A model generated the notes under the pieces. It saw nothing but the letters and a program-made list of their open reading frames with translations, did no database searches and was not told where the DNA came from. The translations under genes were made by a program, and so were the position numbers. From a virus, in the IMG/VR virus record IMGVR_UViG_3300009512_000068, positions 1-25,426 of that record: a stretch of DNA of 25,426 bases; one strand, 5' to 3'. The stretch's first letter is position 1. Every line of letters starts with the position of its first letter. Shown here piece by piece: positions 11,425 through 15,737 of this stretch.

Positions 11425-11862
11425 ATGAGAAATTTAAAAACATTAAATAATTGGCTCTATGAATATAAAATCAATGAAGCAGAAGTAAAAGATTTAGACA
11501 TGGAAGACATGAATCCTGGCATGGCAAAGACTTTATTAGGCTTGGCAAATAAAGAATATGAGGGTGAGTTTCAAGGATCCTATACTGTCAGCAAAGGAAG
11601 TAAAAAGTTGAGATTCGATACATCGCATGCTTTATTAGTTGCGTTTAAAGCCGCAGATGATGGTGGTAATTATGGACCTCCTTATGGTATTAATTTAGCA
11701 GCTGGAGGGAAACTAGAAGATTTTGAAAACAATGTTGTAGGTAAGTTAAATACTAAATCACTATCAGCTGCAATTGCAAGCGTGAAGAAGGCTATGAAAG
11801 CTGCAGAAAAAGAACATAATAAGTTGGGGAGCTTGGCCGCCGAAGCTGAAAAAAAAAAGTGA
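11425..11862 (+). CDS. Putative internal head protein with capsid-targeting leader
   Basis: A 145-residue protein. The start at 11425 (MRNLKTLNNWLYEYKINEAE) is chosen over 11395 because its leader matches two other genes of the cassette (MKNLKTFEAFINEA, MKNIKTIEDFLKEK) and resembles the T4 capsid-targeting sequence MKTYQEFIAEA. The motif I-N-E|A after residue 18 fits the T4-like prohead protease rule (hydrophobic-x-Glu). The mature part has a beta-rich section (GSYTVSKGSKKLRF) and an Ala/Lys-rich C-terminal helix. It ends in ten A residues encoding K-K-K before TGA, forming a possible slippery site. Targeting and cleavage are inferred by analogy. Confidence 0.6.
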   Translation: MRNLKTLNNWLYEYKINEAEVKDLDMEDMNPGMAKTLLGLANKEYEGEFQGSYTVSKGSKKLRFDTSHALLVAFKAADDGGNYGPPYGINLAAGGKLEDFENNVVGKLNTKSLSAAIASVKKAMKAAEKEHNKLGSLAAEAEKKK

Positions 11863-11884
11863 ATGATTCGGTAGAGATGAATCA
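11853..11884 (+). other. Possible -1 frameshift site A-AAA-AAG with short hairpin
   Basis: The gene ends GAA AAA AAA AAG TGA, so A-AAA-AAG (11853-11859) is in the correct phase for tandem -1 slippage as in dnaX. A -1 shift reads GTG AAT GAT and joins the next open frame without a stop. TGATTC (11864-11869) can pair with GAATCA (11879-11884), a 6-bp hairpin beginning 4 nt after the slip site. The hairpin is weak, and A-runs are common in this genome. Confidence 0.35.
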
Positions 11885-12104
11885 CGGTAATTTTATAAAC
11901 GAAGGCGATGATCCATTAGATAAAAATAAGGATGCCATCAGCGATGCAAAGGATAAGATTAAAGAAACTCAGCAAAAGATGTCAGATATTGAAGATGTCA
12001 AAAAAAGAAAATTGATGGCATTGAATTTGGAAGTGCTTAATGCTAAATTAGATATGCTTCAATCCCAAAAGAAAATGCTAAGATTCAAATCTAAAATGGA
12101 TTAA
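11877..12104 (+). CDS. Putative small internal head protein, coiled coil
   Basis: From ATG 11877 the 75-residue product begins MNHGNFINEGDDPLDKNK, with F-I-N-E|G as a very early candidate prohead-protease site. The rest is a charged helix (AKDKIKETQQKMSDIEDVKK, then LNAKLDMLQSQKKMLRFKSK), probably a coiled coil, ending basic. The frame is open back to GTG 11859, which lies in the -1 frame of the preceding gene's end, so it might also be made as a C-terminal fusion by frameshifting. DNA binding by the basic tail is possible. No named family is recognised. Confidence 0.55.
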   Translation: MNHGNFINEGDDPLDKNKDAISDAKDKIKETQQKMSDIEDVKKRKLMALNLEVLNAKLDMLQSQKKMLRFKSKMD

Positions 12105-12119
12105 ATAAAAAATAAAAAT

Positions 12120-12599
12120 ATGAAAAATCTAAAAACATTTGAAGCCTTTATAAATGAAGCTGCGTATAAGGTACCAGCATCAGACTTTGGTAAATCAATG
12201 TGGAAATATTACCAAGTAAATGGAGAAAAGACATGGAGAGTTCATTGTGAATATGCAATAGACCAGGTTAAGGGAGACAATGATCCTGAGGAGAGAGATG
12301 TAGTATTCTTTGAGGCAATGCCTATTAATAATGACATATACATTAAGATTGGTGGAATTAATAATCTAAAGAAGTCTAATGCTTCTACATACGGAAAGAA
12401 TTTTGCTACAACTCCTGAAGAATTTGGAGAAGACCCTGAATCAGTTTCATCAGAAGCTGCTAAATTTCTTACAGACAAGGACCATCTTAAGTGGATAAAT
12501 AAAAATGCAAAGTCTGAAGGTCAAAAGATTAAGTTTGCTATGAAGGATGACTACACTGAAGTAATTAAAACTCTTGTAAATAAAGCGCTAGGGCGATAG
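12120..12599 (+). CDS. Putative internal head protein with T4-like targeting leader
   Basis: A 159-residue protein beginning MKNLKTFEAFINEAAYKVPA. The leader closely resembles the T4 internal-protein leader MKTYQEFIAEA, and cleavage after I-N-E (residue 13) would release it. The mature part mixes strands (KTWRVHCEYAIDQ, DVVFFEAMPI, IYIKIGGI) and a helical C-terminus (AAKFLTDKDHLKWI, VIKTLVNKALG). The start sits behind an A-rich leader with no Shine-Dalgarno sequence, 15 nt after the coiled-coil gene. Its function after packaging is unknown; T4 internal proteins are injected with DNA and some inhibit host defences. Confidence 0.6.
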   Translation: MKNLKTFEAFINEAAYKVPASDFGKSMWKYYQVNGEKTWRVHCEYAIDQVKGDNDPEERDVVFFEAMPINNDIYIKIGGINNLKKSNASTYGKNFATTPEEFGEDPESVSSEAAKFLTDKDHLKWINKNAKSEGQKIKFAMKDDYTEVIKTLVNKALGR

Positions 12600-12603
12600 A
12601 GAT

Positions 12604-14022
12604 ATGAAAGGACTTGTAGCTGCAAAAAGCGAAATCGATAAATCATTTCAAATGTTCGTTATTTATTCTGAACATGAAAAATACGCAAGCGATTTTGCTC
12701 CTATATTCAAATCTCATGGTTTGGGTTTTTTAGTTCCAGGTAAAAAGCAAATATATATTGACGGAGAGTCTTTAGAAGATTTGACATATGATCATTTACT
12801 TGCTATTCAAGCTCATGAAATTTCGCACTATAGACTTAAGCACAAAGGCGATTATTCTGAAAAACAAGAATTAGAAGCTGATGTGGAAGGGTATAAAATA
12901 TTAGTTGACGGTAATTATACTAAAGCAGCTGTAATACTTAGACAAAGAATAAAGGACCACTACGGTAAAAGAGGCTTAAAAATGCTTGGCGAAAATAAAA
13001 TAAATAATAATATGAAAAATATAAAAACCATAGAAGATTTTCTAAAAGAGAAAAGAGGTCTTTGGGATAACGTTCATGCTAAAAGAAAAAGAGGAGAAAA
13101 GCCTGCAAAGCCAGGAGATGAAGATTATCCAGAAGAAGATGCATGGGAAGATGCTAAAAAAAAATCTAAAGTTACTGAGGCATCTAGAGGCAAAGTCCAT
13201 AGAGCTGTAAAGAAAGGAAGCTATCCTGTAACTCTTGTTGTAATTAGCAACGGAATGGTTGTCAAGCAGAAGTTGGTCGATACTCCAGAAGCAGTTCCTG
13301 CTCATTTTAATACATTACAGAAAGAATACCCAAACGCTAATATATCGGTTGAAGATAATACTGGCAAGAGATTATTTAGCGAATCAGTTAATGAAGGTAA
13401 AATGCCAGGCAAATATATTGGTAATGACGAGATAGTTTTTATTAAAACAAAAGAGGATTCAAGAGGAGCTCAATACAGCCTATATTACAAAGGTTATGAC
13501 ATTGATGCAGGCGGTCAATCATTTGGCAGCGAAAAGGAACTAAAAGCATTTGCCAGTAATTACATACTCTCAAATCAATGGTATAATAAACTAAAACATA
13601 AAGATGCTAAACCTTTACCAGAATCAGTTAATGAAGGATTACCACCTGGGTATTCTAAATTTTTAGTTAGCCTACAAACACTTATAGGGGATATAGCTCC
13701 AAATGCATGGGGAAATAAAAGCCAAATAACCCCATCATCGGTAAAGAGAGTTCATAATTCATTGAAAAAAAGGTATGGTGATGACTATGCAAAATTCAAT
13801 GACCTATTGAAAACTCAAAAAGGCCAATTCGGAAATTGGTATCTTAAAGAATCAGTTAATGAAGCAGCCTCTGTTATAAGCATGCCTGAGGCAGAGAAGG
13901 TATGGGATGCACTAGTGAAGAAGTTTTCAGATAATAAAAATGATTCTATAGAATATCTAAATAAAGATAAGTCATACAGAAATATGGCAATCATGGCTAT
14001 ATTTAGAGCAACAAAATTTTAA
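12604..14022 (+). CDS. Zinc-metallopeptidase-like domain fused to VNE-punctuated capsid-cargo polyprotein
   Basis: A 472-residue protein of two parts. Residues 1-130 carry HEISH (71-75) and downstream ELEADVEG (90-97), the HExxH plus E(x)AD pattern of M48-like gluzincins, so a zinc peptidase active site is plausible. At residue 137 (ATG 13012) a second leader begins, MKNIKTIEDFLKEKRG, matching the targeting leaders of neighbouring genes. The sequence just before it (GENKINNN) is what an A-rich intergenic leader would encode if translated, which suggests a lost stop codon and gene fusion, or a second internal start. Candidate prohead-protease sites follow at T-E|A (192), VNE|G (264), VNE|G (344) and VNE|A (420), giving segments of 72-80 residues. 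The start is 4 nt after the upstream stop. Confidence 0.65.
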   Translation: MKGLVAAKSEIDKSFQMFVIYSEHEKYASDFAPIFKSHGLGFLVPGKKQIYIDGESLEDLTYDHLLAIQAHEISHYRLKHKGDYSEKQELEADVEGYKILVDGNYTKAAVILRQRIKDHYGKRGLKMLGENKINNNMKNIKTIEDFLKEKRGLWDNVHAKRKRGEKPAKPGDEDYPEEDAWEDAKKKSKVTEASRGKVHRAVKKGSYPVTLVVISNGMVVKQKLVDTPEAVPAHFNTLQKEYPNANISVEDNTGKRLFSESVNEGKMPGKYIGNDEIVFIKTKEDSRGAQYSLYYKGYDIDAGGQSFGSEKELKAFASNYILSNQWYNKLKHKDAKPLPESVNEGLPPGYSKFLVSLQTLIGDIAPNAWGNKSQITPSSVKRVHNSLKKRYGDDYAKFNDLLKTQKGQFGNWYLKESVNEAASVISMPEAEKVWDALVKKFSDNKNDSIEYLNKDKSYRNMAIMAIFRATKF

Positions 14023-15240
14023 AAGATATATAGTAAAACAAACATAAATTTACAAAAATGAATAAATCAGAATTAAGAGCAATTATCTTAGAAGAGTTAG
14101 AGAAATCTAAGGCATCTCTTTTAACGGAAAAGTTTGCATCCTCAATTATTGGAGATATTAACAATAGACTTGATAACAGTACATCTAAAGATCTTTGGAA
14201 CTCAACTGCAAATACCTATGGTATAGCATGGGATAAAGTTAAAGACGAGCATGTTTCAACAGGCGCTAACCCAAGAAGAAATCAGTTAAACATCTTTTTT
14301 GTAGCAGCAGGAACTAGAAACCCTTATGCAGGGTCTCAATACAGGAGTTCATTTTATAGGGATGCTCTTTTAGGTATTTCAGTTGGTAAAAAAGTAATTG
14401 GATTTAGTGGAAATCATTTTTATAAAGACCCTGGCGCAACTAAAAAGAGTAAAAAAGTTAATACTGATGCAGATAATTATTCAAAAGCTGGAGTTGGAGT
14501 TGATGCAAAGGTTTGGAACTATAAAAGAATGTTAGAAGTTTCATCAGAAGTATTCTCTATTGATATAGATGCTATTCAGAACTGGAACAGAGAACTTCAA
14601 ACTCTTAGAGCTGAACAACGAGACGGAGCTACGGCAATGCAGCAGAACAATCAAATTCTTCAAGATAATAAAAATAGATACAAAGAAGCAATTAAAGTTA
14701 TTAAAGATGCTGGTGTTTCAGGTAAAGAATTTGAAATTGTAATGGAGCATTTAGCAGATGCTGAACAGATATTAACTAAAGAACTTAAACAAAAAATCAA
14801 AGACACTAGAAGAGGCATTGTTTATCCTGGATGGGATAACCCATTCCAACTAGCAGTCAATTTACATAGTGACATGGTTAAGAAGTTTGAAGACTTTCAA
14901 AGGTATGCTGTTGATGCAAAAAAAGAAGGCGGATCTTGGTATGCAAAGTATCTTACTCAAATTGCACATGACGTCAAGAAGATAAAAGTAGACTTCGATA
15001 GAAGACTCATAAAAGCAACATCACAAAAAGAACAATCAATTACTGAATCAGTAGTTAATGAAAAGAAAGCTGGGTTCGTTGCAATATATAAAGTTATGGG
15101 ACAGGAGTTTAAATTTGGTCCTTTAAAGACAGATGATAAAAAATCAATCATGGCAATGCTTAGTAATGCTATCCAAGGTGGATTTCAATTAGTAAGAGTT
15201 GTTCCTGCTGACCAAGTTAAAGAATCAGTAGTTAATGAAG
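13381..15240 (+). repeat. Dispersed repeats GAATCAGTTAATGAAG encoding ESVNE
   Basis: GAATCAGTTAATGAAG occurs exactly at 13381-13396, 13621-13636 and 13849-13864 in one gene. A version with an added GTA codon (GAATCAGTAGTTAATGAA) occurs at 15045 and 15222 in the next gene. All are in frame and encode ES(V)VNE. More diverged equivalents encode ESKINE (E465) and KAVNE (E502) of the second protein. Near-identity in DNA suggests recombination or duplication of whole segments at these junctions. Confidence 0.85.
14027..14035 (+). promoter_or_regulatory. Candidate TATATA promoter box
   Basis: TATATAGTA lies 5 nt after the stop of the polyprotein gene and 22 nt upstream of the next ATG, within a 35-nt A-rich gap. 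It is a weaker match to the recurring TATATAA box. Confidence 0.3.
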
Positions 15241-15737
15241 CTGCATCATTAGTAGATGAGGTAACAGGTAAAGCTGTTAAATTACCTTATAAGACTAAAG
15301 ATTTTAGAGGAGACCCTATTAAAGTTACCGGTTTTAGAGAACCTCATAAATCAAGTTCTTCTGGTAGAATACAGACAGATCGAGGTGAGTTTTTCCCAGG
15401 AGTAGCTGGAGTTAAGATCGTTGGACATCAATTTGAATCTAAAATAAATGAACGCAACGCTTTCTTAGGAGCAAGAGCTAAAGCAATTGAAGAAGATTTA
15501 GAAGAGTTTGAATTTAATGGTAAAACTTACCCAGTAACTAAATCTAAAAAAGCAGTTAACGAAGATTACATTGAAACAATTGATGGCAAGGGAGACATTG
15601 GAGCAGGTCTTGAACTTATTGAAGAAGCTTGGCTTGATTGGGGTAGAGGACCAATGACGGAGCCAGGTGATATAAAACCAGCAGCAAAAGAATTAATTGG
15701 TTATATTAATAATTGGTTAAAGAAAAACATTAAATAA
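14058..15737 (+). CDS. Large putative internal head polyprotein with VNE sites
   Basis: A 559-residue protein. It begins MNKSELRAIILEELEKSKAS followed by L-L-T-E|K (24), a second leader type of amphipathic helix ending in Glu. Residues 25-335 form one long segment with a beta region (NQLNIFFVAAG, ALLGISVGKK) and a coiled coil (about 180-260). Then come candidate sites VVNE|K (335), VVNE|A (394), KINE|R (465) and VNE|D (502), cutting the C-terminus into segments of about 59, 71 and 37 residues, plus a 57-residue end containing YINNWLKKNIK. Packaging with and cleavage by the prohead protease are inferred. No enzymatic motif is recognised. A terminator follows. Confidence 0.6.
   Translation: MNKSELRAIILEELEKSKASLLTEKFASSIIGDINNRLDNSTSKDLWNSTANTYGIAWDKVKDEHVSTGANPRRNQLNIFFVAAGTRNPYAGSQYRSSFYRDALLGISVGKKVIGFSGNHFYKDPGATKKSKKVNTDADNYSKAGVGVDAKVWNYKRMLEVSSEVFSIDIDAIQNWNRELQTLRAEQRDGATAMQQNNQILQDNKNRYKEAIKVIKDAGVSGKEFEIVMEHLADAEQILTKELKQKIKDTRRGIVYPGWDNPFQLAVNLHSDMVKKFEDFQRYAVDAKKEGGSWYAKYLTQIAHDVKKIKVDFDRRLIKATSQKEQSITESVVNEKKAGFVAIYKVMGQEFKFGPLKTDDKKSIMAMLSNAIQGGFQLVRVVPADQVKESVVNEAASLVDEVTGKAVKLPYKTKDFRGDPIKVTGFREPHKSSSSGRIQTDRGEFFPGVAGVKIVGHQFESKINERNAFLGARAKAIEEDLEEFEFNGKTYPVTKSKKAVNEDYIETIDGKGDIGAGLELIEEAWLDWGRGPMTEPGDIKPAAKELIGYINNWLKKNIK

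Follow-up and report, generated by a model that had tools for sequence, protein, structure and literature searches.

A candidate capsid-cargo cassette with T4-like leaders and serial putative protease sites in an environmental phage

The internal proteins (IPs) of phage T4, Ip1–Ip3, reach the host by injection and inhibit particular type IV restriction enzymes there (PMC12373910). In IPIII, mutants assign residues 4 and 7 to targeting and residues 8 and 10 to processing; the T4 prohead protease gp21 cleaves after L/I-X-E (PMC9026906). Here we describe a cassette of five tandem genes at positions 11425–15737 of a 25,426-base viral fragment (IMG/VR record IMGVR_UViG_3300009512_000068; this whole stretch is the window), placed behind an SLT-lysozyme-like gene (10535). 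It encodes solo leader proteins and polyproteins of small modules strung on ES(V)V[N/T]E linkers, and we think it likely to be a cargo cassette whose products are delivered to the prohead and cut there by an S77 protease.

Several described systems share parts of this arrangement. T4 IPI, IPII, IPIII, and Alt carry a capsid-targeting signal, are cleaved by gp21, and are injected. Like them, the proteins studied here have a short leader with aromatic residues at P4 and P7 and a junction after hydrophobic-X-Glu. As in the IPs, a hypervariable cargo stands behind a conserved leader in phages with gp21/gp23-type head genes, here seen in relatives. T4, however, has a single cargo per leader, whereas up to about 15 modules share a chain here, and the joints are repeated processing sites without targeting aromatics, with a canonical linker conserved as DNA. 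Many prohead-protease sites per chain are known from T4 gp22 and gp67 and from phiKZ and SPN3US (PMC9026906, PMC10052503), giant-phage propeptides being cut at multiple sites (PMC10052503); those pieces are scaffold or propeptide and are mostly expelled, whereas here we see separate, exchangeable modules that are also encoded singly behind a leader. Polyvalent proteins (Iyer et al. 2017, PMC5512222) likewise hold several unrelated domains per chain, with delivery at infection presumed. Unlike them, most chains here have no embedded MPTase, the modules are small and family-less, and the candidate site is of the prohead-protease type. Lambdoid and T-even phages carry conserved boundary or linker sequences at mosaic module joints, and here too short conserved DNA joins exchangeable pieces; unlike those boundaries, the joints fall within reading frames, where they encode a putative protease site. 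Openly accessible full-text literature yielded no account of a prohead polyprotein with multiple cargos.

Leaders and serial candidate sites in the window

A preliminary description of the window had named three leaders resembling that of a T4 internal protein, and all three are present, at 11425, 12120, and 13012, the last inside an ORF that opens at 12604. Solo cargo gene 1 (11425..11862; all features given here are on the + strand) starts with leader MRNLKTLNNWLYEYKINE↓ (11425-11478; the arrow marks the candidate cut), followed by a 127-aa cargo (C1, AEVKDLDME...), and solo cargo gene 3 (12120..12599) starts with MKNLKTFEAFINE↓ (12120-12158), followed by a 146-aa cargo (C3, AAYKVPASDFG...). 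A further leader, unlisted earlier, lies in solo cargo gene 2 (11859..12104), where MNHGNFINE↓, read from the ATG at 11877 (to 11903), precedes a 66-aa cargo (GDDPLDKNK...); the orthologue in the close relative L001 has the full leader MKNTLLFSDFINE↓GDDPLDKNK. Four of the five genes hold a leader junction: KINE↓A (11425), FINE↓G (11877), FINE↓A (12120), and FLKE↓K (13012). Across 113 leaders from the window and its relatives (related loci fetched from viral contigs), collected with a pattern in which two aromatic-type positions were obligatory and the spacing to the cut was free, P7 was F/Y in 86%, P4 was F in 69%, P3 was I/L/V in 91%, and P1 was E. Residues 4, 7, 8, and 10 of T4 IPIII correspond to P7, P4, P3, and P1. 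The T4-type combination of P7/P4 aromatics with hydrophobic-X-Glu is found in the gene at 12120 and related leaders, with 11425 and 13012 fitting less well.

The same description had noted serial V/I-N-E motifs in the two large proteins. Seven [VI]NE sites are indeed present in these ORFs, against a shuffled mean of 0.87 and a maximum of 5 (5,000 shuffles), while 18 other tested window proteins (5,173 aa) have no VNE or INE and four [VIL]NE, all LNE. In the 472-aa ORF g12604 (12604..14022), the sites follow residues 264, 344, and 420 and bound segments of 80, 76, and 52 aa; in the 559-aa ORF g14058 (14058..15737), they follow residues 335, 394, 465, and 502 and bound segments of 59, 71, 37, and 57 aa. 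Segments of 72–80 residues had been reported; the 80 and 76 come from [VI]NE sites, and the 72 is bounded by an additional site, KVTE↓ASRG (13171–13179), which had been overlooked on account of the T at P2. The serial sites proved real, but VNE was too narrow a definition: P2 may be N, T, D, or S, with the P1 Glu best kept. In its longer form, the motif reads ES(V)V[N/T]E followed by A/G/S/K, and its window form, ES(V)VNE, occurs in five copies with the same codons, GAATCAGT(AGT)TAATGAA.

Short strings of this kind could recur by chance or composition in unrelated E-rich proteins, given that [VIL]xE strings are common and that the genome-wide count of a loose motif in the related record G042 was at the shuffled level. 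The excess over shuffled expectation in the window, the coincidence of sites with module boundaries, and the near-identical linker DNA make this explanation extremely improbable, and the comparative data below already contradict it.

Internal sites retain P3 and P1 of the leaders and have lost the P7 and P4 aromatics, and from this residue pattern the linkers resemble a leader reduced to its processing half, the targeting half being gone. The P1' preference for A/G/S/K is common to leaders and internal sites. A route by which such chains may arise is seen in two relatives: L004 has three adjacent genes with one leader each, and in L008 the same three are joined into a single ORF that preserves the inner leader (NENNMKYATTFEGFVTE↓SKK). 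The window's 12604 ORF, in which an M48-like domain is followed by a leader with its own Met (NKINNNMKNIKTIEDFLKE↓KRG), looks like the same kind of gene fusion; the internal leader MKNIKTIEDFLKE↓K (13012..13050) may be an internal start or a gene-fusion remnant.

The N-terminal domain of g12604 (136 aa) carries the motif HEISH and matches PHROG 87 metallo-protease (E 5.5e-5). Joined in frame to the modules, it might itself process the polyproteins, as has been proposed for the MPTase domains of polyvalent phage proteins, which would free their own parts (PMC5512222). Several observations make this very unlikely. The M48 match (E 0.0039) is under the Pfam cut-off, no peptidase match was found in g14058 or in the polyproteins of L002, L092, L025, L109, and L129, and the solo leader proteins share the junction without having a peptidase. 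In addition, a complete leader with its own Met follows the M48-like domain, as if a separate gene had lost its stop. No known domains were found in the five relatives' polyproteins or in g14058, the weak M48-like domain being confined to g12604, and the combination of known enzymatic or effector domains with an MPTase-type peptidase that marks polyvalent proteins was not found.

Recurrence and shuffling of modules among relatives

The same bead-like cargo polyproteins appear in at least dozens of environmental relatives. One such chain, in L002, has 1,315 residues in about 15 segments, mostly with ESVVTE↓ between them, and holds M1, M2, and C3 in a different order from the window. C3, a solo protein in the window, is embedded in polyproteins of about ten other phages, always starting right after [N/T]E↓A and usually ending ahead of ES(V)xE↓. 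C1, M1, and M2 are likewise found both behind a leader and within a polyprotein, C1 following ESIVTE↓N directly in the L091 polyprotein (66% identity). In all, four modules are found both as stand-alone proteins and as chain members, delimited at the same point in either form. When all segments were clustered, dozens of module families emerged, many of which had several different sets of neighbors. One cargo per leader, the rule for T4-type IPs, does not hold for g12604, g14058, or dozens of homologues, in which modules are serial.

In g12604, four to five cargo modules follow the M48-like domain and the internal leader in frame. The first (KRGLWDNVHAKRKRGEKPAKPGDEDYPEE...SKVTE↓, 13051..13179) contains a short motif recurrent elsewhere, at varied positions in PHROGs 11180, 22379, 28131, and 11470 and in cyanophage hypothetical proteins. 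Next is M1 (ASRGKVH...SESVNE↓, 13180..13395), whose homologues start directly after xE↓ in L002, L076, and L109 and directly after a leader in L013. Linker ESVNE↓G (GAATCAGTTAATGAA, 13381..13395) leads to M2 (GKMPGKYIGND...YYKGYDID...PLPESVNE↓, 13396..13635), which is internal in L001, L002, and L085 and stands right behind leader MKKVKLFEQYITE↓G in L004 and L008. M3 (GLPPGYSK...YLKESVNE↓, 13636..13863) and M4 (AASVISMPEAEKVW..., 13864..14019) complete the chain.

An exchange is seen in the comparison with L001. Its flanking modules are 95–100% identical to those of the window at the protein level, M1 is absent, and M3 has been replaced by an unrelated module. The left end of the swap falls exactly at linker ESVNE↓G (13621..13635) and the right end at ESVNE↓A (13849..13863), beyond which the initial 23 aa of M4 are identical up to the L001 contig end. 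At the DNA level, identity stops within GAATCAGTTA[A/C]TGAAG and restarts within GTTA[A/C]TGA[A/G]GCAGC, which are the site codons.

To generalize from this pair, we considered 272 non-redundant proteins and counted homology breaks internal to both partners, with circularly shifted sites as the null. Of 1,929 breaks, 500 lay ≤4 residues from [VILMFA][NTSD]E in both partners, whereas shifted sites gave 34 on average and never more than 59. For three control motifs, the counts were close to the shifted means or exceeded them modestly, and for [VILMFA][^NTSD]E the count was about threefold above its own null; a further control, E[NTSD][VILMFA], was dropped in favor of these cleaner ones because ESV itself contains that motif. 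In a thinned set of 130 dissimilar junctions, 30 were at sites (expected 2.0, maximum 7), and among 932 breakpoints mapped in DNA, 319 lay ≤9 nt from a site in both genes (expected 18, maximum 37). The proposal that the large proteins are precursor polyproteins is strongly supported by this comparison of recurring modules and site-bound breakpoints, with the site definition widened as above.

In g14058, a candidate second-type leader, MNKSELRAIILEELEKSKASLLTE↓K (14058..14129), ends in SLLTE↓KFASS and in the L009 orthologue in SLLNE↓KFASD, an N/T change at the candidate P2. Behind it is the N1 domain (312 aa, 14130..15062), a divergent family modeled by AlphaFold with a confidence of 67. This N1/F0 family (about 310 aa; the window's copy and 16 homologues) has the most fixed position of any module, being the C-terminal module of the polyprotein in 15 of 16 members and ending in ...FDYAW in most relatives. 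Modules N2–N5 follow, delimited by linkers ESVVNE↓K (15045..15062) and ESVVNE↓A (15222..15239; both GAATCAGTAGTTAATGAA) and by candidate sites ESKINE↓R (15435..15452) and KAVNE↓D (15549..15563). The N4 module, NAFLxARAKAIEED, stands after xxE↓ in about 30 phage loci.

Conservation of the linker as protein and as DNA

Two layers of conservation can be distinguished at the joints. In alignments crossing a site, the P1 Glu is identical in 84% of cases compared with 36–68% elsewhere and 46–50% at P2 and P3, a pattern indicative of selection on the residue at the cut. At the DNA level, the exact 20-nt linker GAATCAGTAGTTAMYGAAGC was found in no fewer than 119 viral stretches and the synonymous control GAATCTGTTGTTAMYGAAGC in 5, although the control should be about equally common by background codon usage. 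In canonical ESV(V)[N/T]E linkers, the Ser codon is TCA in 59/68 (87%) and 24/28 (86%), compared with 33% in the remainder of these proteins (p about 4e-20 and 1e-8, with repeated contexts removed but related sequences not fully independent). Non-canonical variants have TCA in 44%, near background, and with all site variants averaged in alignments, linker codons are barely above the rest (0.69 versus 0.59). Judging from these codon counts, DNA conservation belongs to the canonical form. Among the matches listed, 86 of 88 distinct new copies of the linker DNA lie well within open frames, 75 of them in ORFs with at least two linkers, and the core linker sequence is in the same open frame in 58/58 copies. 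One site profile that included loci fetched by the DNA pattern was excluded from all figures. In prokaryote genomes (257 Gb), there was one linker-DNA match, roughly the chance level. This lone match, L259 (WGGB01000205.1), is an Alteromonadaceae contig from a metagenome-assembled genome and may be a misbinned phage contig or a chance hit.

These data bear on whether the linkers could be recombination joints only, in which case the products would stay whole as multidomain proteins, whether packaged or not, and their likeness to leaders at the joints would be a legacy of fused leaders. The DNA-level conservation of the canonical linker fits such an account, shuffling alone could explain the breakpoints, and cleavage has been deduced rather than observed. 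Even so, variants whose DNA has drifted still hold xE and a hydrophobic P3, P1 Glu is much better retained than P2 or P3, the A/G/S/K preference at P1' is the same as at leaders, and in the same phages [VI]NE↓ stands at corresponding places in the capsid proteins and where the protease domain ends. We consider recombination joints without cleavage unlikely. Our own reading of the codon and residue patterns is that linkers may spread as DNA joints whose codons drift later, while a protein constraint on P1 Glu persists. The chances seem to us evenly balanced that the linker is dual-purpose, with GAATCAGTAGTTAMYGAAGC serving both as a recombination joint between phages and as code for a prohead-protease site; a translation- or RNA-level cause of the DNA conservation is possible as well. 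Were the linker dual-purpose, modules would be spliced in frame and freed singly, giving a modular, exchangeable payload from one gene.

Head genes of relatives and the nature of the cargo

The closest matches of two window tail genes (502 and 1369) are in large Bacteroidota phages and Sphingomonas phage PAU, the matches including Tenacibaculum phages PTm1 and pT24, Prevotella Lak phages, Chryseobacterium phage MA9V-1, and Flavobacterium phage MaF61. The window phage is probably a large T4-related myovirus with gp21/gp23-type head genes, its characterized tail-gene relatives being mostly on Bacteroidota hosts. The preliminary description had suggested looking for the prohead protease elsewhere in the genome and for the same leaders in related phages; both were found in relatives. 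Record G035 (148.8 kb) is largely collinear with the window (tail tube 75% identical, ligase 59%), and its SLT gene adjoins a cargo cassette holding C3 and M2. Its head cluster opens with a portal gene and a small protein that starts in MKHIKLFEEFVSE. Next comes a gp21-type S77 protease in fusion with an acidic scaffold-like region, followed by a solo cargo (MQYVKLFEQFINE↓A), by a gp23-type capsid protein (MATLINE↓AEIR), by a glycosyltransferase-like gene, and by a polyprotein in which ESVV[N/T]E↓A occurs three times; the portal and glycosyltransferase names come from sequence appearance and position, with no family search behind them. An S77 protease is present in 12/29 and 9/22 related records, mostly fragments. 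The S77 domain ends in ELKRVNE↓S in many related records, and relatives' capsid proteins start with LINE↓A and GINE↓S.

The S77 protease and an acidic, repeat-rich scaffold-like region share one ORF (417–791 aa) in L056–L064 and L111–L118, like a merger of gp21 and gp22. A second, short S77-like ORF (132 aa) is found in L065 and L066 (the records of L008 and L004), and in the 234-kb record G005 it stands alongside the main protease.

With this cluster in hand, we weighed whether the polyproteins might be prohead core or scaffold, like T4 gp22, gp67, and gp68, with pieces that exit the head and no delivered cargo. T4 gp22 and gp67 are multiply cut and mostly expelled (PMC9026906), and one G035 polyprotein, repeat-rich, lies close behind the capsid gene. 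However, modules differ strongly between close relatives, unlike a core scaffold; the same phages already own a gp67/68-like acidic protein and a protease-fused scaffold region; like IPs, modules can be solo proteins with a leader; and the models of M1 and M2 are compact domains. A scaffold role is, in our judgment, quite unlikely. The polyprotein gene shortly downstream of that capsid gene (L129 9066-10811; G035 29066-30814) has a long GTSGKDK/E repeat and an apparent M1 tail end (EDNTGNRLFSESVVTE), which looks like a leftover recombination scar.

In the AlphaFold models, M1 and M2 form compact alpha/beta domains (pLDDT about 80), and confidence falls modestly, to 66, at the linker between them. 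Foldseek searches with the N1 and M1–M4 models, of moderate or low confidence, gave no match with E < 0.001, and no function was drawn from them. PHROG and Pfam name none of the cargo modules, save the weak metallo-protease match and a KPGDxDYP motif. By tblastn against isolated phages, g14058 and the L002 polyprotein had no match, and g12604 matched cyanophage proteins solely via that motif. The pI is ≥7 in 11 of 14 pieces of the window.

Three side observations concern neighboring proteins. Large proteins of the F6 family (L033, L046, L016, L018, and L092) have the nucleotidyltransferase-like motif FVGRFQPFTLGH, and their C-termini (EFLTFDDFIKNI, QVLTFAEFKK, and SVMTFQEYMNKLKS) could be a C-terminal capsid-targeting signal (CTS). 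An L025 ORF at about 7880 has a leader (KKINE↓A) and ESMVNE↓A before an AAA+-like ATPase domain and is possibly a packaged ATPase. L004 encodes from 13380 a tail-fiber-like protein with long collagen-like GFQGxQG repeats.

Some points weigh against a delivered, protease-cut cargo. Neither protease nor capsid gene is present in the 25-kb window itself, and exact ESVV[N/T]E is absent from the six tail-gene relatives tested, namely one metagenomic record and the five cultured phages PAU, PTm1, pT24, MA9V-1, and MaF61. Modules across relatives have a median pI of 5.2, in contrast to the basic T4 IPs. The segments of g12604 and g14058 go down to 37 aa, and with a few so short, some sites may stay unused; M3 and M4 are modeled at low confidence, such that folded-domain status is uneven among segments. 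The breakpoint counts come from related, non-independent proteins, though the thinned set agrees. Finally, support comes throughout from sequence comparison.

On balance, we still favor the cargo reading, under which the leader, through its aromatics at P7 and P4, would bring the chain into the prohead core, and the S77 prohead protease would cut behind the P1 Glu, both in the leader and in every linker, releasing many small proteins. We infer proteolysis at the joints from the match of the sites. The freed proteins would remain with the DNA and, at infection, probably pass into the host. Polyproteins may originate by in-frame fusion of adjacent leader-plus-cargo genes, the linker representing the leader's processing half (hydrophobic P3, P1 Glu) after loss of the targeting half, and the near-invariant linker DNA may mark the points of module exchange. 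By analogy with the T4 internal proteins, the modules likely have a similar role, blocking restriction after injection.

T4 packs few IPs, whereas the linker format would allow many more cargo proteins per leader and rapid swapping, and the payload set in the head may be built and altered by exchanging beads. The linker offers a search handle for hundreds of uncharacterized, probably head-packaged small proteins missed by family libraries, which are candidates for counter-defense or host take-over. For protein engineering, it provides a naturally occurring multi-cargo format to try.

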